NCBI GenBank assembly: GCA_947311115.1 | Contig: CAMZKE010000154.1 | Location: forward strand, 1 to 35,025 | Length of the DNA: 35,025 bases | Source: an uncultured Bacteroidales bacterium | Lineage (GTDB): Bacteria; Bacteroidota; Bacteroidia; Bacteroidales; JAFGXI01 | Reading direction: 5' to 3' | In this document: positions 9,645 through 25,199 of the stretch, one piece after another | Position numbering within the stretch: position 1 is the stretch's first letter | How the letters are laid out: the number at the start of each line of letters is the position of its first letter | Notes under the pieces: generated by a model | The model's database searches: none | Seen by the model: the letters and a program-made list of their open reading frames with translations, nothing else | What the model was told of the DNA's origin: nothing | Made by a program: the position numbers and the translations under genes

Positions 9645-12600
9645 ATGGCCGAAGGAAAAAAATATGGAGCATTTGCAGGAGTTTTTACTCCTTCATTATT
9701 AACTATTTTGGGTGTAATAATGTATATGCGACTTGGTTGGGTTGTTGGCGAAGCAGGACTGTTATATACTATTTTAATAATACTTATTGCTCACGTAATA
9801 TCTGTTACAACCGGTCTTAGTATATCCTCAATAGCTACCGATAAAAAAATAAAAACAGGTGGTATTTATTATATTTTATCGAGAAGTTTGGGTTTGCCAA
9901 TGGGTGGAGCAATAGGTATAGCTTTGTTTATAGGAACAGCTTTAAGTATTTCATTATATATTGTTGGTTTTGCCGAAAGTTTTTTAAGTATTGATGCAAT
10001 AAGTAATTTTTTAGGTTTAGAGGCTAATATAAATGGGTTTAGAATAATTGGAACAGTAGTAATAATATTACTTGTGGTTATTGCTTTTATAAGTACATCG
10101 CTTGCAATGAAAATGCAATTTTTTATATTAATTGCAATAGCTTTATCGTTGGTATCTATTGGTTTGGGCTTTTTTCAAGACTCTGAGTTTCATTCAAATA
10201 CATTACATAAAGTTGCAACCGGCGATTTTCCTTTAGAATATATTTTTGCAATATTTTTTCCGGCTGTTACAGGGTTTACTGCAGGTGTAGCAATGTCGGG
10301 CGATTTAAAAGACCCTAAAAATAATATTCCCTCAGGTACAATTTGGGCAATTATTGTTGGGTTTGTTGTATATGTATTATTAGCAATAGGAATAGCATTT
10401 TTTATTAAACCTGAATATTTAATTTCTGATAATAATATTTTAGTTAAAATAGCTTGGTTTTCTCCACTTGTTATTGCAGGTATTTGGGGTGCAACACTAT
10501 CGTCAGCTTTAGGTGGAATACTTGGAGGTCCACGTATTTTGCAAGCAATTTCTAAAGATAAAATTACACCAAAAATATTTGGTAAAGGATATGGCGAAAC
10601 AAACGAGCCAAGAAATGCTTTATTAATGATTTTTGCTATTGCCGAAGCAGGTATTTTAATTGGTAATTTAGATATTATTGCTGGTGTTGTTTCAATGTTT
10701 TATTTAGCAAGTTATGGCTTTATAAATCTAGCTTATGTATTAGAGAAGTGGGCTAGTACCGATTTTCGTCCATCGTTTAAAATAAATATAATATTTGGAA
10801 TTATAGGCTTTGTTTTTGCTTTTGCAATAATGTTTAAACTCGATATGTTATCAATGTTTGCTTCGTTTGCAATTATTGGTGGTATATACTTTTTGTTAAA
10901 ACGCAGACAGTTAAAAACTGAATATGGCGATGTATGGCAAAGTGTTTGGACTACTATTACTAGGCGTGCGTTGTCTAAAATGAATAGTAAAGAGATTGAG
11001 GAACGTAATTGGAAACCAAACATTTTACTTTTTACAGGTGGAACAAAAAAACGACCTTATTTATTAGAACTTGGTAAGGCAGTGGTTGGAAAACACGGTA
11101 TTCTTTCAAATTTTGATTTATATGAGAATAAAAATTCTGATTTGCTATTTACAAAATACGAACAAAGGGTAAATAGTGATGATGATGTAGAGGGTGTTTT
11201 TACTCGCCGCCAATCATGTAATAATATTTATGAGGGAATTGAAATGATTTCTCGCACTTATGGTTTTTCCGGAGTAGAGCCAAACACCGTTGTAATGGGG
11301 TGGGGACGACAAAGTGAAAATCCTGTACAGTTTGTAAATTTAATAAATTCAATTGCTGATTTAGATTTGAATATTCTATTAGTTGATTACGATAAAAATA
11401 GCGGTTTTGGTAATAAAAAATCTATTGATATTTGGTGGCGTGGTTCCGGTAATCATGGAAATTTAGCATTAACTCTGTCTAAATTTTTACTTTTATCAGA
11501 CGATTGGGAAAATGCAAAAATTCGTTTGCTTATAGTTAATTATGAAAATGATAAAGCAGGTGTAATTAGAAAGAAAGCCGATTCGTATTTAGAAAATTTA
11601 AGAATTGATGCCGAAGTTAAAATTATAAATAATGAAATAGAACGTAAACCGTTTTACGATTTAATGAAAATTGAATCGAAAAATTCTGATTTAATATTTC
11701 TTGGTATTTCTGAAATTAAAAAAGGAAAAGAAGCCGAGTTTGTTGAAAAAACAAATGCTTTAATGCATAAAATAGGTACAGTTATTCTTGTAAAAGCATC
11801 GTCGGTTTTTAAAGAAATGAACCTTGGAATTAATAAAACAATTGGTTCTGATAATAAAGAAATTTCTTTGGCAATAGTTAGAAATGAGAATATAATTACG
11901 CTAAATAAGGCTAAAAATAATGTTGTTTCGGAAGAAATACAGCATATTTACAACAAAACAATAGATATATTTAAAAAATATAATAGTCCGGTTTTCAATA
12001 AAATTACAAACGATAATAATAATCTTATTGAAGCTATAAAAACAAATACTCTAAAAACATTAGAAAATATTGAAAATGCAATAGGAGAGTACAGTAACGA
12101 GCAATATCAAAAAATAATAGCTCAAAATCATTCTAACTTTTTGCTTAAAATTAATAAATTAATAAATCTGCATATTGAAGAACAAATTGCTGTACAAAGC
12201 AATATATTAGATTCTAATTTACAAAAATATGTTTCAGAAATAAATACATTTTTTAAGTTTATTCCAAAGCATTTAATTATTAGATATTTGCCAGAAGATT
12301 TGAAGCCAAATAAAGATGATAGCTTTAGTATAAAAATGTTTAAATTCCGTAAACGTCTGCTATCTAACGAAAAAGGAAATAGGTATAAAGTTAAATTAAA
12401 TAAAATTATAAATAAAGATTTGTCTTTAAAACGTCAACTGTTTATTTATCAGTTATTAAAAGATTTTGGTTTGGTTAATGTTCAGTTTTTAATTGAATTA
12501 GAAAAGCTTATTGTTAGTAACAATAATTTATATCAACAGATTAGTAATTTGCAGGAAAACAATAAGTTGGTAGCTTGTAATATACAAGATATTAAATTAA

Positions 12601-14744
12601 AAATAAAGCAAAATTTTATTGAATTATCAAATTTTAATTTAAAAATTGAAGATGGCATAGTGAAATTATATACCGATTTTTACACTAAAGAGTTTAATAA
12701 AATAATATCGTTTATCGATGTAATTAACTGTAATTCGCATTTGCCTGACGAAGAAAAAAATTATAATAGACAAATTAAACACTTAGATAAAAAGATTCTG
12801 GCAGTACCTACAAAGTGGGAATTTAATCAAACACTATTACATAATTCAGCTTCGGTTAAACTAATGCTTATGGCATTAACAAACCGTATAAAAAATATGT
12901 TAAACGATTTTTCTGCAGGAATGAAATTGTACATTAATGAAAATATTTTGCAAACATACGAGCTATATCAGCAAAGTTTAATTCATAATAATGATATATC
13001 AGATTTAGAACTTATTGATGTAAATGAAGTTATACACGGGTTCTATAATCAAGATGAGAAATTTATCCAAAGATTAACAAAAATAATATCAAAATTTCCT
13101 GCAAAAATTGAAATATTTGATAACGACGATTTAAACGATTTTGCAGATACACAATACGATGTAATTAAATCATCAAAAATTTCATCATTAATATTATTAG
13201 AATATATTGTTAAACAAAAAATATCGAACGATTGGGAAAGTTATTTGAGTACTACAAAAGATGATATTAGTAAATCGTTAAAAACAGTAAACGATATTGT
13301 TCGGTTGCTTAAATTTACAGTAAATCAAGAAAAAAATGCAGATGTTTTAGAGGTAATTGCACAACAAAAACAACGTTTACAACAAGAAATAGAGTTAATT
13401 GCCAATATTTCTGAAAATATTGTTGATAAAGCCCATAGTTTAATTTCCGATTTCCAAAATCAGTTAGAATATAACTCGTTTATAAAAACAGCTACCGATT
13501 TAAAACAATATATTAAAAAAGAAGATAGAGCTACTAAAAAACGTTTTTTAAGCGACAAATTAAAGCAGATAAATGTTTTTTATAAGAAAGTTATTACGCA
13601 ATTGCTTTATGCTAAGAGTAATGCAGAAAGGTATAAGGGGCTAATTAAAGAACAAAACGAATATAATATTGTAAATTCGTTATTAGATTTTAATTCGTCG
13701 GTTTCGCCAAAAAGAAAAGTTATTGAGCAGTTGCCATTTTATTATCCGCAACTTTTTATTAATACAAGCTCTAATTACAATGAGTTTTGGTTTGGTAGAG
13801 AAAAAGAGGTTGAGCAGGCAGAAAAATCTATTGAAAGGTATTTTGCAGGTTATAAGGGAGCTATTGCAGTTACCGGCGAACCCGGTGCAGGAAAAAGCTT
13901 TTTTGTAAATTATATTTGTCGAAATTTTAATAAAGATGATGTTTTTATTATAAGACCACCTGAAACAGGAAGTGTAAATAAAATTGATTTTTTTGCGTCA
14001 GTTCAAAATGCAACAAATAAAAAAGCTAAACCTGAAAATATTTTTAAAGAATTGCCAAAAAATAGTGTGGTAATTATTGATGATATAGAATTATGGTGGG
14101 AAAAAACAATAGGTGGTAGCAAGCTAGTTGAATATATTTTTGAACTAATTAATAAATACAATAAAAAAATACTTTTTATTGTTGTTAGTAACGAGTTTGT
14201 TGCAAATGCAATTTATAACTTAAACGATGTGTCTGAGCTGTTTATTAACTTTATTAAACTTCAACCGCAAAATGCCGAAGTTATAAAAGATATTGTACTT
14301 ACAAGGCACAAAACAGGAGGTTTAGAGTTTAATTATAAAAATAAATCGTTAAGTAGTTTATCGGAAATAGCCATTGCAAATTTATTTTTAAAGTACAGTA
14401 AATTTACTAATGGTAATATAAACGCAGTACTAAAGCTATGGTTGGCAAATATTATCAGTTTTAATAATAATACTATTGAAATTATAATACCAAATATTGA
14501 TACATCGTTAATCGACGATATTGATATAGATAATTTGGTTATATTACATCAGTTTGTTTTACATAAACATCTTACAATATCTAAATTATCGCGAATTTTA
14601 CGTGAAAATAAAGAAACTGTAAAATATAAATTAGAATTTATGTTACGTTCCGGACTTATTGAAAAACATAATAACTACTATTTAATAAATCCGTTTATGG
14701 CAGTTTATTTAATTCAGTTACTAAAAAATAGAAATATAATATAA
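9645..14744 (+). CDS. SLC12-type cation-chloride transporter fused to a P-loop ATPase
   Basis: A single 1699-residue frame. Residues 1-415 are an amino-acid-permease/SLC12 membrane domain with about 12 helices (opening FAGVFTPSLLTILGVIMYMRLG, then a GGIYYILSRSLG segment). Residues 453-730 match the SLC12 cytoplasmic domain (NWKPNILLFTGG; VMGWGRQ; WWRGSGNHGNLAL). Residues 730-1370 are helical, Lys/Asn-rich, with no recognised domain. An FGREKE motif precedes a Walker A G-E-P-G-A-G-K1417-S, and Walker B is VVIIDD (D1479-D1480), as in AAA/STAND NTPases. Residues 1625-1699 look like a winged helix (SKLSRILRENKETVKYKLEFML). Known bacterial SLC12 homologues end far earlier. An MscS-type gene follows 10 bp later. 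It probably moves Na+/K+/Cl- or amino acids under control of the ATPase; this is inferred. Confidence 0.85.
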   Translation: MAEGKKYGAFAGVFTPSLLTILGVIMYMRLGWVVGEAGLLYTILIILIAHVISVTTGLSISSIATDKKIKTGGIYYILSRSLGLPMGGAIGIALFIGTALSISLYIVGFAESFLSIDAISNFLGLEANINGFRIIGTVVIILLVVIAFISTSLAMKMQFFILIAIALSLVSIGLGFFQDSEFHSNTLHKVATGDFPLEYIFAIFFPAVTGFTAGVAMSGDLKDPKNNIPSGTIWAIIVGFVVYVLLAIGIAFFIKPEYLISDNNILVKIAWFSPLVIAGIWGATLSSALGGILGGPRILQAISKDKITPKIFGKGYGETNEPRNALLMIFAIAEAGILIGNLDIIAGVVSMFYLASYGFINLAYVLEKWASTDFRPSFKINIIFGIIGFVFAFAIMFKLDMLSMFASFAIIGGIYFLLKRRQLKTEYGDVWQSVWTTITRRALSKMNSKEIEERNWKPNILLFTGGTKKRPYLLELGKAVVGKHGILSNFDLYENKNSDLLFTKYEQRVNSDDDVEGVFTRRQSCNNIYEGIEMISRTYGFSGVEPNTVVMGWGRQSENPVQFVNLINSIADLDLNILLVDYDKNSGFGNKKSIDIWWRGSGNHGNLALTLSKFLLLSDDWENAKIRLLIVNYENDKAGVIRKKADSYLENLRIDAEVKIINNEIERKPFYDLMKIESKNSDLIFLGISEIKKGKEAEFVEKTNALMHKIGTVILVKASSVFKEMNLGINKTIGSDNKEISLAIVRNENIITLNKAKNNVVSEEIQHIYNKTIDIFKKYNSPVFNKITNDNNNLIEAIKTNTLKTLENIENAIGEYSNEQYQKIIAQNHSNFLLKINKLINLHIEEQIAVQSNILDSNLQKYVSEINTFFKFIPKHLIIRYLPEDLKPNKDDSFSIKMFKFRKRLLSNEKGNRYKVKLNKIINKDLSLKRQLFIYQLLKDFGLVNVQFLIELEKLIVSNNNLYQQISNLQENNKLVACNIQDIKLKIKQNFIELSNFNLKIEDGIVKLYTDFYTKEFNKIISFIDVINCNSHLPDEEKNYNRQIKHLDKKILAVPTKWEFNQTLLHNSASVKLMLMALTNRIKNMLNDFSAGMKLYINENILQTYELYQQSLIHNNDISDLELIDVNEVIHGFYNQDEKFIQRLTKIISKFPAKIEIFDNDDLNDFADTQYDVIKSSKISSLILLEYIVKQKISNDWESYLSTTKDDISKSLKTVNDIVRLLKFTVNQEKNADVLEVIAQQKQRLQQEIELIANISENIVDKAHSLISDFQNQLEYNSFIKTATDLKQYIKKEDRATKKRFLSDKLKQINVFYKKVITQLLYAKSNAERYKGLIKEQNEYNIVNSLLDFNSSVSPKRKVIEQLPFYYPQLFINTSSNYNEFWFGREKEVEQAEKSIERYFAGYKGAIAVTGEPGAGKSFFVNYICRNFNKDDVFIIRPPETGSVNKIDFFASVQNATNKKAKPENIFKELPKNSVVIIDDIELWWEKTIGGSKLVEYIFELINKYNKKILFIVVSNEFVANAIYNLNDVSELFINFIKLQPQNAEVIKDIVLTRHKTGGLEFNYKNKSLSSLSEIAIANLFLKYSKFTNGNINAVLKLWLANIISFNNNTIEIIIPNIDTSLIDDIDIDNLVILHQFVLHKHLTISKLSRILRENKETVKYKLEFMLRSGLIEKHNNYYLINPFMAVYLIQLLKNRNII

Positions 14745-14754
14745 AATTTAAGCT

Positions 14755-15477
14755 ATGATAAATAACTCGTTTGGAGCAATATTATTTATTTCGGTACTAT
14801 CGGTAGTTATAATTCTTATATTTTCGATGCTGAAAACTAATTTACCAATATTTAATATATCAATAAAACAAAACAAAAAGTTAATTAAAAAATTATACTT
14901 ATCCGAAATCATTCTTGGAGTAATAGTAATATCAATATTTGCAGGTTATTTGTTTCATAGAAGCACGATAATGTTTGCTGTGTTGTTTTTACTGTTAGTG
15001 ATGGTTATTATTTTTATAGGATTATTTTTCTTAAAAGATTATATAGCCGGATTAATTATTAAATCGTCGGCAACATTTGTTGAAAACGATATAGTAGAAT
15101 TTGAAAACCAACAGGGGAAAATAATAAACCTAACAAAACGAGCAGTTGTATTGTTAAATTCTGATGGCGATAAAATATTTATACCTTACTCTAAAATAAT
15201 ATCGAATATTAAAACCATAAAAGGAGCAAAAGATACAATTAACACCGGAAGTTTTACAATAAAATGTAAAACCCCAGATGATATTAACAAACTTACAAAA
15301 ACAATATCAAATTTTATAGCCTCGCTACCTTGGGTAAGCACTACATTATTACCTGATATAACTTTTTTAGATACAAATAAAGAAACAAGTAAAATTAAAA
15401 TTACAGTTTATTATTTAGATGCAAAATATTTGCAAAAAATAGATAATTCGGTTCGTGAAATGTTTGAGGAGGAATAG
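14755..15477 (+). CDS. Small MscS-type mechanosensitive channel protein
   Basis: A 240-residue membrane protein. Three hydrophobic segments (about 7-25, 45-65, 70-95) are followed by the MscS pore helix and beta domain: DYIAGLIIKSS, then F-VENDIVEFE, GKIINLTKRAVVLLNSDGDKIFIPYSKI (about 115-155), and a C-terminal alpha/beta domain. Length is close to the minimal MscS (about 280) with a shortened N-terminus. MscS channels open under membrane tension to release solutes in hypo-osmotic shock. It starts 10 bp after the SLC12-ATPase gene, so the two are almost certainly co-transcribed and probably act together in ion/volume homeostasis (inference from operon). Confidence 0.85.
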   Translation: MINNSFGAILFISVLSVVIILIFSMLKTNLPIFNISIKQNKKLIKKLYLSEIILGVIVISIFAGYLFHRSTIMFAVLFLLLVMVIIFIGLFFLKDYIAGLIIKSSATFVENDIVEFENQQGKIINLTKRAVVLLNSDGDKIFIPYSKIISNIKTIKGAKDTINTGSFTIKCKTPDDINKLTKTISNFIASLPWVSTTLLPDITFLDTNKETSKIKITVYYLDAKYLQKIDNSVREMFEEE

Positions 15478-20249: not shown

Positions 20250-23200
20250 ATGAAAACTTTTTTTATCTTAACATTTACTTTGTTATTTGCTAATCTTTTT
20301 TCACAAGAAGATGTAAGTTTTACAGTAGATATAACAGAAGGATGTAGTCCATTAACAGTGAATTTCACAAACACAAGTACTGATACACAGTCAGGCTATT
20401 ACAAATGGTTTTTTAATGATGGCACTCAACCTTTAATTGATGATAATGGAGGAACACATACTTATACAGTAAGTGGTTATTACAATTTAACACTTAAAAA
20501 GTTTAATTATCAAGACAATGAAATAGATAATTATACTATAGGAATAAGAGCTGATGGTATCGACTCTATTCAAGTTTCTACAGGTGCAGATGCTTGTATA
20601 GGCGAAAAAATATGGGTACAACCTTATGAAAGTGGTGCAAATGTAAATTTAATGCACATAAAATGGTTTTTTGGCGAAGGCGATACTATTTTTAGTAATT
20701 ATACAGCATCTCATAAGTATTTAAATGCGGGAACATACAATATTGAGATGTATGCAGAAACTCAATGCGGTTTTGATACAATAATTCAGCAAATTGAAAT
20801 AACAAATTCTGCTACTCCAATAGTTGATTTTGAAACAAGTGGATCTAATCAAGTTTGTATAAACGACCAAATAAGTTTTTATCCTAAATATCCGGCAGCT
20901 TCGTATAGTTGGGATTTCGACGATGGTGCAACCGATAGCTTACGTAATCCAAATCATATTTTTACCTTACAGGGAAATAAGAATATAACACTCACAACAA
21001 CAAATATTTGTGGTAATTCAGCTAGTAAAAGTTTACTTCTTGAAGTTTCAAATAATTTACCTGCTTTTGCAAATTTTGGTTTCGATAATTATTCTAATTG
21101 TCCAAATATGCCAATCAGTTTTAGTGCTTTTTATACAGGAACTTATCAATGGACTTTTGATACAATATCTACATCTAACATACAAAATCCTAATGTTTTA
21201 TTTGCAGATACCGGCGATTATAGTGTGCAATTAATACTAACAAACGGCTGTGGAAATAGCGATACTTCTTTACAAACGGTATCTGTTCATTACGACGAGA
21301 GTAATAGACCTTCAACATATATAAATTTCGATATTAACGGACCCGAAAGAGATACAATTCAGATATGTCCTAATCAGGAAGTAAGTTTTAGAAATAATAC
21401 ATATCCTTTATTGGGTGTTGATTATTTATGGAATTTTGGCGATGGTGCAACTTCAGCATTGTTAAAACCTTCTCATATATATAGCGGAAGTACCGGCTTA
21501 TTTCAGGTAAGTCTTATAGCAACAAATCAATGTATGGGTAAGGATACAGCATATTTATGGGTAGATGTTAATAATAATACACAGCCAAACGGACAATTAG
21601 TTGTTATGCCAGATACAATTTGTCCTGGCGATAATGCAAGTTTTATCGATATGGGGTCTAATAGTGATGGCGAAATACCTCTCGGATATAATTATAATAT
21701 CGTTTTTGGTGATGGTCAAACGCTTAGTAATCCAACAAGTTTTTCTGATAGTACTTTGCCTGTTTTTAATCATGTTTACAATAATGCAGGACAATATAGT
21801 TACACTTTTAGTTTAACAAACTCTTGTGGTAATAGTATTGGAGACACAGGTATTGTTGTTGTTACAAATAGTTATCAAAACCCATCGCAATATATGGTAA
21901 TAAATAGTACCGACCCAAATTATGGTGGTGGCGAAACAGGGGTTTGTATTAACGAACCTGTGCAGTTTATTATTGTTGGAGGTCATACTTTTGAGTGGCA
22001 TTTTGGCGATGGCACAATAAGTATAGATACAAATTTTGTTACTTACCATGCTTATGCCGATACAGGCTCGTATCAGGCTTTTGTTATAATTACAAATTCG
22101 TGCGGTTTGTCCGATACTATAAGTTCACCTGTTACTATAACCGGCTCATACCTTCCTGAAATGTGGTTTGATGTAAATGGTGAAGCTAATTGTCCGGGAG
22201 ATTCACTTATTTTTAATTATGGTAGAGATGGTTACTTGTTTGATACATATACCTATGAGTGGGATTTTGGTGACGAAACTATTGGTAACGGACACGATAT
22301 TGCTCATAGTTATTTACATACAGGCGAGTATAACGTAAAATTAAAAGTTACTAACGGATGTGGTTCGATAACAAACTTTAGGCATATTTTTATTGATGGT
22401 CCAATATTAGATTTTACTGTTAGCGATAATACTGTTTTGCCTAACGATACTGTTGTTTTTACTAATAATAGTACAAATTCCACAAGTTATTCTTGGAATT
22501 TTGGTGACACGCAAACATCTACAATAACATCGCCAACGCATGCTTATGAAAATTACGGTTATTATAATGTGTATTTAGTAGGCGTAAGTGCTTCAGGCTG
22601 TGTTGATACATTAAAAAACGACAGTATTATATTGGTATCTACCCTAAATGTTGACGCTGAAGTACATAATATTACTTGTAATGATGGTAATAATGGTGTA
22701 ATTATTTTTTCTATTGTAGGTGGTACACCTCCTTATACTATAACTAATGATGAAAATTTAAGCACTACTGTTAATTTTTTATATTCTAATTTATCTCCAA
22801 ATACATATCATTTTCATATTACTGATGCAGCAGGTATTGTTGTAAACAAAACAATTACAATTACACAACCTGCAGCAATTTCGTATTATGCCGTTACCGA
22901 TTCGGTTTCTTGTGCAAATATTAATGATGGCAAAATTACATTAAATGTTTCGGGTGGCACAGCTCCTTATACATATAAATGGGCTAAAGAAGTTGGGTAT
23001 CAGCAGTATGAACAATATAATAGTAATGCCAATCCTTTAGAAAATTTAACTACAGGATTTTATAAAGTTACTATTACAGATGTTAATGGCTGTACTAATA
23101 GTGCTGCTAATATAATTCTTGTTGACGGTAATGGTTCGTTGCCGTATTATGCTTATGGGGGTATTGATGCTTGTAATGCAAGTAACGGTTCTGTTACTGT

Positions 23201-25199
23201 ACGTGGTAATACTAATGATAATCGACCTATTTATGTAGAATTTTGGGACGGTACTTCCGGGTATACTACAGACCAATATACTTCTGTTTTAGTTGGTGGT
23301 TTGCAAATGGGAATATACTCTGTAACAATAACAGATACTTCAACAGCTTGTGTATATAACGAACAAGTTGAGATAATGAATACAAATGCAACTTTTAGTA
23401 TAGATGCAACATCGTTAACAAACGAATATGTGTGTGAAAACGATACTACAGGTTATATTGATATTCATATTAATGATATTTCGGGTACTAGTGGGAATTT
23501 TACATATCAATGGTCAAATAATGTTCCTGAATACAGAAAGGCAAATGGAGGTAAAACTATTTACCATTTACCGGCAGGTATATATAACGTAACTGTTACC
23601 GATAATAATAATAGTTGCCCTGCTGTTAAAAGTTTTGAGGTGAAAAGTTTAAGTGCTCCCGATATTATGTTTGATTTAACTGAACCACAATGTTATGGAG
23701 AATACACAGGAAAGATAAAAGCCATAGCAAACGATGGTGTTTCTAATACAAGTTATAGTTATTTATGGAATAATGGTGCACAAACCCAAGAAATTATTAA
23801 TAGAAATGCAGGTTTATATTCTGTAACAGTTACAAGTAATTGGGGTTGCCAAGCAAATGCAAGTGTTACACTTAATAATCCACCACAAATGACACTTAGC
23901 ATTAACAGCTCTAATGTAACTACTATTGGTGGTAACGATGGTGTTGCAAGTGTAATTGTTAATAATGGTGGTATTTATCTTGAGTATTTTTGGGAAGATT
24001 CAAACTCAAATCAAATATATAGTGGTTATAATAATTATATTGGAAGCTTATATTCGGGTACATATTACCTAACGGTTGAAGGAACATATTGTACTGCAAC
24101 AGGAACTGTTGTAATAGAAAATCCAACATTATTACCAATAGATATAAATGTAAATGGTGACACACTATTATGTTATGGCGAAACAACCGAGCTTGAGGCA
24201 CCAAGTGGTTATAATACATATCATTGGTCAACAGACGAAACAACTCAAACAATAACAGTAGGCGAAACAGATACTTATTCGGTAACAGTTTCTGATGGGT
24301 TTCAATCTGGTATAGATAGTATTGATATAACCGTTTCGCATCCGTATAACGACGAAAAAATATGTATGGTAACAGTTGATACAGCATCGTTATACAATAT
24401 GGTTATTTGGGAGAAAACGCCAAATGTAGGAATAGTTTCGTATAATATTTATAAGCTTTTCGGAAGCCAGTATTTGCAAATAGGTTCGCAAGTGTTTGAT
24501 GATATGAGTGTGTTTATCGATAGTTCATCGCAACCAAATGTACATGCCGACCGTTATAAAATTTCTATTGTTGATACTTGTGGTAACGAATCTAATTTAA
24601 GTCCTTATCATCAAACAATGTATATGGGTATTAGCGATAATACTTTAGGTGGTAACACTGTTATTATTCTCGATTGGGACGAGGCAATTGTTGATGAAGG
24701 TGCACAGCCAATAGATTGGTATTATATTTATAAAGGAAACACACCAAATACAATTTCTCAAGTCGATTCTGTTTCTGGGGTATTTACAGGTTGGAACGAT
24801 TATAATGCAAATGGTGCATTGTATTACAGAGTAATATTTAATGCAACTCACGCCTGTATTCCTACAAGTGTTGATAAAGCTAGTGGTGGTCCTTACTCGC
24901 ATTCTCTTTCAAATTTAGATGATTATGAGATTGAAACAGCTGTTGATAAACTAAATACTAATAACAGTATTTCGGTTTTTCCTAATCCGTTTAACGAAAA
25001 AACTACAGTCTCCTTCTCAGGTAAATATAAAACATTAAGTTTTAAATTGGTTGACTTTACCGGACGTACTATTATTAAAGTAAATAAACTACAAAAATCT
25101 GTTTATTTACTTGATGGTTCTAATTTAGCGAAAGGTATATATTTTGTTGAGTTTAATGCCGATAATAAAATTTACAGAACAAAAGTTGTAGTTGAATAG
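20250..25199 (+). CDS. Giant PKD/SprB-repeat surface protein with T9SS type A sorting domain
   Basis: A 1649-residue exported protein. Signal peptide 1-19 (LTFTLLFANLFSQ). About nine PKD-like domains fill residues 20-800, each with a W-x-F-G/D-D-G type strand (YLWNFGDGAT, YEWDFGDE, YSWNFGD). About six SprB-like repeats follow (about 800-1290; GGTPPYTI, GGTAPYTYKW, YLWNNGAQTQ). Two fibronectin-III-like segments lie at about 1370-1540. The C-terminal 80 residues start SVFPNPF and end KGIYFVEFNADNKIYRTKVVVE, the T9SS type A sorting signal cleaved and anchored at the cell surface. SprB-type proteins act as gliding or attachment adhesins; which role applies here is inferred. The gene is monocistronic with its own terminator. 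Confidence 0.93.
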   Translation: MKTFFILTFTLLFANLFSQEDVSFTVDITEGCSPLTVNFTNTSTDTQSGYYKWFFNDGTQPLIDDNGGTHTYTVSGYYNLTLKKFNYQDNEIDNYTIGIRADGIDSIQVSTGADACIGEKIWVQPYESGANVNLMHIKWFFGEGDTIFSNYTASHKYLNAGTYNIEMYAETQCGFDTIIQQIEITNSATPIVDFETSGSNQVCINDQISFYPKYPAASYSWDFDDGATDSLRNPNHIFTLQGNKNITLTTTNICGNSASKSLLLEVSNNLPAFANFGFDNYSNCPNMPISFSAFYTGTYQWTFDTISTSNIQNPNVLFADTGDYSVQLILTNGCGNSDTSLQTVSVHYDESNRPSTYINFDINGPERDTIQICPNQEVSFRNNTYPLLGVDYLWNFGDGATSALLKPSHIYSGSTGLFQVSLIATNQCMGKDTAYLWVDVNNNTQPNGQLVVMPDTICPGDNASFIDMGSNSDGEIPLGYNYNIVFGDGQTLSNPTSFSDSTLPVFNHVYNNAGQYSYTFSLTNSCGNSIGDTGIVVVTNSYQNPSQYMVINSTDPNYGGGETGVCINEPVQFIIVGGHTFEWHFGDGTISIDTNFVTYHAYADTGSYQAFVIITNSCGLSDTISSPVTITGSYLPEMWFDVNGEANCPGDSLIFNYGRDGYLFDTYTYEWDFGDETIGNGHDIAHSYLHTGEYNVKLKVTNGCGSITNFRHIFIDGPILDFTVSDNTVLPNDTVVFTNNSTNSTSYSWNFGDTQTSTITSPTHAYENYGYYNVYLVGVSASGCVDTLKNDSIILVSTLNVDAEVHNITCNDGNNGVIIFSIVGGTPPYTITNDENLSTTVNFLYSNLSPNTYHFHITDAAGIVVNKTITITQPAAISYYAVTDSVSCANINDGKITLNVSGGTAPYTYKWAKEVGYQQYEQYNSNANPLENLTTGFYKVTITDVNGCTNSAANIILVDGNGSLPYYAYGGIDACNASNGSVTVRGNTNDNRPIYVEFWDGTSGYTTDQYTSVLVGGLQMGIYSVTITDTSTACVYNEQVEIMNTNATFSIDATSLTNEYVCENDTTGYIDIHINDISGTSGNFTYQWSNNVPEYRKANGGKTIYHLPAGIYNVTVTDNNNSCPAVKSFEVKSLSAPDIMFDLTEPQCYGEYTGKIKAIANDGVSNTSYSYLWNNGAQTQEIINRNAGLYSVTVTSNWGCQANASVTLNNPPQMTLSINSSNVTTIGGNDGVASVIVNNGGIYLEYFWEDSNSNQIYSGYNNYIGSLYSGTYYLTVEGTYCTATGTVVIENPTLLPIDINVNGDTLLCYGETTELEAPSGYNTYHWSTDETTQTITVGETDTYSVTVSDGFQSGIDSIDITVSHPYNDEKICMVTVDTASLYNMVIWEKTPNVGIVSYNIYKLFGSQYLQIGSQVFDDMSVFIDSSSQPNVHADRYKISIVDTCGNESNLSPYHQTMYMGISDNTLGGNTVIILDWDEAIVDEGAQPIDWYYIYKGNTPNTISQVDSVSGVFTGWNDYNANGALYYRVIFNATHACIPTSVDKASGGPYSHSLSNLDDYEIETAVDKLNTNNSISVFPNPFNEKTTVSFSGKYKTLSFKLVDFTGRTIIKVNKLQKSVYLLDGSNLAKGIYFVEFNADNKIYRTKVVVE

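Follow-up and report, generated by a model that had tools for sequence, protein, structure and literature searches.

In animals, cation-chloride cotransporters (CCCs) of the SLC12 family, which are controlled by kinases, play a central part in cell volume, blood pressure and neuronal chloride. These kinases are separate proteins that act by phosphorylation, and the C-terminal domain of the animal transporters can bind ATP (PMC8280820). The control and use of SLC12-type transporters in bacteria have hardly been described in the open literature covered here. Nucleotide-responsive regulators are familiar from other ion transporters: CPA2 antiporters of the KefB/KefC type have cytoplasmic regulators, and Trk/Ktr systems have KTN/RCK subunits. 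AAA+ proteins of the ORC/Cdc6-type clade are known as switches or loaders. Here we analyse a locus in a 35,025-nucleotide stretch of DNA from an uncultured Bacteroidales bacterium (hereafter the window), in which an SLC12-type transporter and an AAA+ ATPase are encoded as one protein.

Architecture and conservation of the fusion protein

ORF analysis of the window gave a single ATG-to-stop frame of 1699 codons lying exactly at 9645-14744 on the forward strand, as the first-pass annotation had read it, and an MscS-type gene starting 10 bp after its stop codon. The features of the two genes are the following.

9645..14744, +, fusion gene for an SLC12-type cotransporter, helical domain, AAA+ ATPase and winged helix (1699 aa; profile matches, ~30 full-length relatives)
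9645..10919, +, transmembrane domain of the cation-chloride cotransporter, residues 1-425, with 11 hydrophobic segments (PF00324 over 13-422, TIGR00930 over 3-690, hydropathy)
10491..10505, +, ATLSS, the Na+-site signature of Na+-dependent CCCs, residues 283-287 (NKCC1 alignment)
10962..11828, +, CCC-type cytoplasmic C-terminal domain, residues 440-728 (KCC4/KCC3 alignment to ~709)
11877..13688, +, helical domain with internal duplication, residues 745-1348 (AlphaFold2, hhalign)
13722..14444, +, AAA+ ATPase domain, residues 1360-1600 (ORC/Cdc6/TnsC fold, Z about 15)
13875..13898, +, Walker A, GEPGAGKS, residues 1411-1418
14067..14084, +, Walker B, VVIIDD, residues 1475-1480, followed by IELWW
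14514..14741, +, winged-helix tail, residues 1624-1699 (PF05491 RuvB_C, E 0.0055; AlphaFold2 model)
14755..15477, +, MscS-type partner gene, 240 aa, with three hydrophobic segments (PF00924)
14983..15033, +, TM3a pore-helix position of the MscS-type protein, LFLLLVMVIIFIGLFFL, Gly/Ala pattern lost

The protein begins as a cation-chloride transporter, and here profiles and structures bear out the first annotation: residues 3-690 match the NCBIfam model TIGR00930 (cation-chloride cotransporter) with 411.6 bits (E 7e-123), short of that model's own cut-off of 953; PF00324 (AA_permease) marks an APC-type domain with 145 bits against a cut-off of 24.6; and the PDB relatives are KCC1-4, NKCC1 and NCC. 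Alignment to KCC4 and KCC3 reaches residue ~709 and includes a CCC-type cytoplasmic C-terminal domain. The ATLSS motif in TM8, identical to that of NKCC1 in the alignment, contains the two Na+-site serines, and both are kept in 30/31 fused relatives. The K+-site residues are also present, namely Tyr105 in TM3 and Pro206 and Thr209 in TM6 (kept in 30/31, 31/31 and 30/31 fused relatives, respectively). According to PMC11641049, ATLSS marks CCCs that have a Na+ site, in bacteria as in animals, and KCCs have STLGA; the ion-site residues of CCCs are listed in PMC10043231. Because TM1 carries LTIL instead of the LNI(W/L) of NKCCs, we classify the transporter, as far as its residues tell, as a CCC with a Na+ signature and not as an NKCC. 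The K+-site Asn of TM1 is replaced by Thr (28/31 relatives), so the ion selectivity may differ and it is uncertain exactly which ions are carried; the predicted activity that we consider most likely is an uptake of K+ and Cl- driven by Na+. In one fused CCC (L084:7967-13006), both the Na+ and the K+ site are altered, with Gln in place of Tyr and SLVFI in place of ATLSS, and this protein is perhaps a transport-dead or retuned member.

The remainder of the protein was modelled with AlphaFold2, and the structure prediction that had been proposed as a check returned a confident model of residues 735-1699 (pLDDT 83). The Walker A and Walker B motifs are intact, as first noted, and PF00004 and PF13401 pass their own cut-offs on the ATPase domain, with PF13191 just under. 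In structure comparison, the domain matches ORC, Cdc6, RuvB, TnsC and clamp loaders (Z about 15 for the ORC/Cdc6/TnsC fold), and its Walker motifs, AAA+ fold and winged helix place it with the ORC/Cdc6-RuvB-TnsC group. The initial label of a STAND/AAA-like ATPase holds for the AAA half; as for STAND, nSTAND1 scores below its cut-off (E 0.012), the CED-4 structure ranks 14th by Foldseek, and the likeness is to ORC/Cdc6, RuvB and TnsC more than to STAND proteins in particular. The winged-helix-like tail reported at first is recovered as a weak RuvB_C match, in agreement with the AlphaFold2 model and with the related folds that carry such a domain; it could be structural only. A viral structure library returned generic AAA matches only. 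The ABC ATPase domain PF00005 gave no match to the fusion protein at E<=0.1, and an ABC-type pump was rejected.

Between transporter and ATPase, the stretch described at first sight as helical is indeed helical in the model (residues ~745-1348) and, modelled alone, reaches pLDDT 89 and pTM 0.80. It is built from two units that resemble each other (hhalign probability 91.5, E 8e-7), in each of which the model shows long helices around a small strand-helix-helix-strand knuckle. The domain had no match in the PDB at E<=0.001; in VIA-align, the best scores were to designed helix bundles (Z 12.9), with alpha-catenin, vinculin and talin weaker (Z 7.5-10). These likenesses lie within the range expected of ordinary helical bundles, and we assign no known fold from them.

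The search for the same architecture in other genomes, which covered Bacteroidota, found ~30 full-length relatives in separate assemblies from the same order and elsewhere in the phylum, with 30-48% identity and usually a single open frame of 1640-1777 residues; their occurrence in many independent assemblies rules out an assembly fusion of two genes. The full or near-full architecture was present in about 40 among 295 same-order genomes (30-48% identity in the better-scoring rows), for the most part as a single frame of about 1680-1777 residues, with further relatives in other orders and classes of Bacteroidota. The distribution is patchy, since no relative of the fusion was found in the other genome of the same genus. 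Across 31 aligned fused relatives, the transporter is highly conserved and the helical part poorly so, with the AAA+ domain in between. The copies that look split, in G251, G253 and G085 (L041-L043), run into contig ends and hence give no evidence for split genes; at L015:1330-6540, one in-frame TAA interrupts the fusion gene between the transporter and the C-terminal domain. A tblastn search found no plasmid-borne relatives, a scan of genome contigs gave one match, a fragment already among the known relatives, and promoter and terminator scans gave results at chance level only. Elsewhere in the window (20250-25199, +) lies a gene for a probable surface adhesin of 1649 aa, which combines SprB repeats and nine PKD domains with a C-terminal sorting domain for type IX secretion.

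The MscS-type neighbour and the portable module

The first-pass annotation overlooked the partner gene 10 bp downstream, the portability of the C-terminal module and its use with CPA2 antiporters. The 240-aa partner carries an MscS beta-domain (PF00924, 34.6 bits against a cut-off of 20.2) together with three hydrophobic segments, which identifies it as MscS-type. An adjacent same-strand MscS-type gene was present at 59/72 module loci versus 5/404 other ORFs of the same loci; by class, it was found for 23/29 CCC fusions with downstream room, 8/9 other very long frames and 28/34 others. A second sample, drawn once the MscS pattern had been seen, had such a gene at 14 of its 16 loci. Because 13/72 loci, including 6/29 CCC fusions, lacked an adjacent MscS gene in this test, either the pairing is facultative or the partner is encoded elsewhere. 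The loci of 20 CCC genes lacking the module contained no module and, next to the CCC gene on the same strand, no MscS gene. In many loci the module and MscS genes overlap or touch, which suggests that the pair is co-translated. Five further MscS-type genes occur elsewhere in the genome of the window; MscS and CCC genes are common, and association in an operon is not proof of a complex. At three loci (L109:3910-5917, L110:4110-6058 and L062:9271-11417), two tandem MscS-type genes stand beside one module gene, possibly encoding a hetero-oligomeric channel.

The AAA+-winged-helix profile was present in 85/395 genomes sampled across the phylum, and the module occurs in four arrangements. Two are fusions, either to a CCC (total length about 1700 aa) or to a CPA2-type cation/proton antiporter (about 1500 aa); the operons of the CPA2 fusions also contain TrkH and TrkA. 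The third is a stand-alone protein of about 1000 aa, and the fourth a short form of about 750-830 aa whose neighbour is a separate antiporter gene. Because hhalign shows the helical domains of the CCC-fused, CPA2-fused and stand-alone proteins to be homologous (probability 98.8-99.9), we regard the helical-AAA+-winged-helix part, judged by homology, as one portable module of ~970 residues with exchangeable effectors. At the short-form loci (L064, L069-L071 and L117-L120), a separate antiporter gene and a degenerate MscS-like gene adjoin the module, and hhalign did not link the helical part of this form to the ~600-aa domain, to which it has no detectable relation. A group of 1120-aa module proteins of family f193 (L106:6021-9389 and L107:5580-8942) have no MscS neighbour and are flanked by soluble ORFs of ~285 and ~180 aa. 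In a quick module tree with several weak branches, which leaves single origins of the fusions unproven, the CCC and CPA2 fusions fall in different parts and the CCC fusions largely cluster together.

All transporter effectors move monovalent ions, be they CCCs, fused CPA2 proteins or adjacent antiporters, with TrkH and TrkA in the CPA2 operons. The order in these operons is a 414-aa multi-TM protein, the CPA2-AAA+ fusion, an MscS-type gene, TrkH and TrkA (L044:3243-12469; L051-L055, L079); the 414-aa protein has no Pfam or NCBIfam match, and TrkH and TrkA were tested by Pfam in L044 and L056. The CPA2-fused form apparently belongs to a complete K+ homeostasis operon. Because the module nearly always adjoins an MscS-type gene across Bacteroidota, the data point to an undescribed family of ion-balance systems in this phylum.

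Stand-alone modules that have lost the Walker A lysine (L033-L037, L039, L048, L050, L057-L063, L065, L067, L068, L075, L076 and L078) carry Ile, Val, Thr, Arg, Met, Ala or Asn in its place and keep the rest of the fold, so they may bind nucleotide without hydrolysing it. The lysine is lost in many stand-alone copies and in none of the CCC fusions listed, which suggests that hydrolysis matters more when a transporter is controlled.

A proposed ion-balance controller and competing readings

We consider it fairly probable that the window fusion is one architecture of an ion-homeostasis (osmoregulatory) controller of Bacteroidota, with the fused transporter as its effector and the MscS-type partner as sensor or anchor. 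The sequence comparisons establish the architecture and its conservation, the association with MscS-type genes, the range of effectors and the correlation of pore-helix loss with a transporter, and the roles proposed for the parts are our interpretation of these findings. The constant part would be the ~970-residue cytoplasmic regulator, made up of the duplicated helical domain, the ORC/Cdc6-type AAA+ domain and the winged helix, working, presumably in a physical complex, with an MscS-type membrane protein. In the simple and perhaps ancestral form, the regulator would govern an MscS channel with an intact pore helix, which is probably the effector. In the window form, the fused Na+-coupled K+/Cl- cotransporter of the SLC12 kind would become the effector, and the MscS-type partner, its Gly/Ala pore helix lost, would most likely serve as a membrane-tension sensor or as an anchor for the ATPase. 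The MscS-like subunit would read tension and the AAA+ domain, possibly as a ring, the nucleotide state, and the helical domain would relay both signals to switch ion uptake, the presumed direction of transport, on or off. The effector may thus have been swapped in evolution from a channel to a transporter. Only tentatively do we go on to call the system a cell-volume regulator, in which a pore-less MscS-like tension sensor and a fused or associated AAA+ machine would switch a secondary transporter, either a Na+-coupled K+/Cl- cotransporter or a K+/H+ antiporter, the effector having been swapped and the sensor and ATPase kept.

In MscS partners from transporter-less loci, the pore helix TM3a is rich in Gly and Ala, as is usual (for example, ASIGVAVGFASQDLLKN), and in those of CCC- or CPA2-linked modules it is bulky and hydrophobic; in TM3a of the window partner, Gly, Ala and Ser make up a fraction of 0.06 and the Gly/Ala-rich pattern is absent. 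The mean Gly/Ala/Ser fraction was 0.45 for 25 MscS genes without a transporter versus 0.18-0.24 for 37 transporter-linked genes (Mann-Whitney p 1e-10, species relatedness not corrected for). One CCC partner, at L047, is an exception with 0.47, and a low value of 0.35 in the transporter-less group comes from locus L048, where it belongs to a second MscS gene. In the second sample, the values were 0.47-0.59 for partners from transporter-less loci and 0.12-0.38 for transporter-linked ones. Loss of the pore pattern accompanies three transporter arrangements, CCC-fused, CPA2-fused and split antiporter. MSL10, a plant relative of MscS, has a demonstrated non-conducting role, and it conducts despite six Phe in its pore helix (PMC6261518). 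Because such a Phe-rich helix can conduct, the pore-less reading of the partner is put forward as a hypothesis.

The partner might still be a working channel, the fusion balancing salt uptake by the cotransporter against emergency release and the AAA+ domain setting the balance. The beta-domain above the Pfam cut-off, the three hydrophobic segments, the overlapping or touching genes and the example of MSL10 (PMC6261518) are all compatible with a channel, but the Gly/Ala loss tracks the transporter in three separate arrangements, as expected if conduction were dispensable, and we regard this alternative as unlikely. Still less probable is an anti-phage or cell-suicide system in which the NTPase triggers a membrane effector. 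Some defence systems do follow a similar logic, in which a P-loop NTPase and a sensor-like helical region act with a membrane effector, a likeness to which the patchy occurrence of the module, absent from the same-genus genome, may be added. However, PADLOC gave no full-length model match, only a 36-residue P-loop match to mad8 (E 4e-4), by which a known anti-phage system was rejected; household genes, among them RNase Y and an lpxL-like acyltransferase, neighbour the fusion in the window; and the MscS partner is conserved across the phylum, with TrkH and TrkA in the CPA2 operons.

That the ATPase powers transport, making the protein an ATP-driven SLC12-type pump, is highly improbable, even though most CCC fusions, in contrast to many stand-alone copies, have both Walker motifs intact. 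The module also occurs with antiporters and, beside an MscS-type gene, with no transporter at all; the frequent loss of the Walker A lysine in these stand-alone copies disfavours a pump engine in general; the ion-binding residues of the CCC are conserved, including the Na+ site that allows gradient-driven uptake; and AAA+ proteins of the same clade are switches or loaders. The initial view that the ATPase was unlikely to drive transport is upheld by these findings. As improbable is a fusion of convenience, in which transporter and ATPase work independently and their link and the MscS neighbour are a historical accident of one lineage: the clustering of the CCC fusions on the module tree is compatible with a single inherited event, but the fusion is kept down to about 30% full-length identity, which argues for selection on the pairing, and a second (CPA2) fusion elsewhere in the tree and split antiporter neighbours exist.

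Comparison with described systems

For the combination of an SLC12 or CPA2 transporter, the AAA+ module and an MscS-type protein, we found no description in the open-access journal literature that the search covered, nor did we find one there for bacterial CCC fusions, MscS proteins with an ATPase or STAND proteins with a transporter; the impression that the architecture was undescribed therefore stands. We rate the proposed controller as a new kind of system with a predicted function, in which every domain except the helical one comes from a known family. An ATPase module borne covalently on a transporter, and exchangeable among channel, cotransporter and antiporter, offers a direct genetic way to study how transporters receive osmotic or tension signals, and it raises the question of whether an MscS-family protein can act as a tension sensor without being a channel.

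The window protein has in common with the SLC12 CCCs (NKCC1, NCC and KCC1-4) and the single-domain bacterial CCCs the transmembrane and C-terminal domains, the ATLSS motif and the K+-site Tyr, Pro and Thr, but no described member has a helical domain, an AAA+ ATPase or a winged helix, all three of which are present here. With ORC/Cdc6, RuvB and TnsC, its best structural matches, it shares an AAA+ fold followed by a winged helix; these proteins act on DNA, whereas this AAA+ domain is attached to a membrane transporter and differs in having LELWW after Walker B and the motifs RH and GN.G.AL..W. MscS channels have the same beta-domain and three hydrophobic segments as the window partner, and their canonical pore helix is kept in the partners from transporter-less loci; the window-type partner differs in having no Gly/Ala pore helix and in its pairing with an AAA+ regulator. 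There is also a likeness in organisation to the KefB/KefC-type CPA2 antiporters and to Trk/Ktr, in which an ion transporter likewise works with a nucleotide-responsive cytoplasmic regulator, and TrkA itself is encoded in the CPA2-fused operons. In those systems, however, the regulator is a Rossmann-fold domain, whereas here it is a helical-AAA+-winged-helix module of ~970 residues that commonly occurs with an MscS-type protein.
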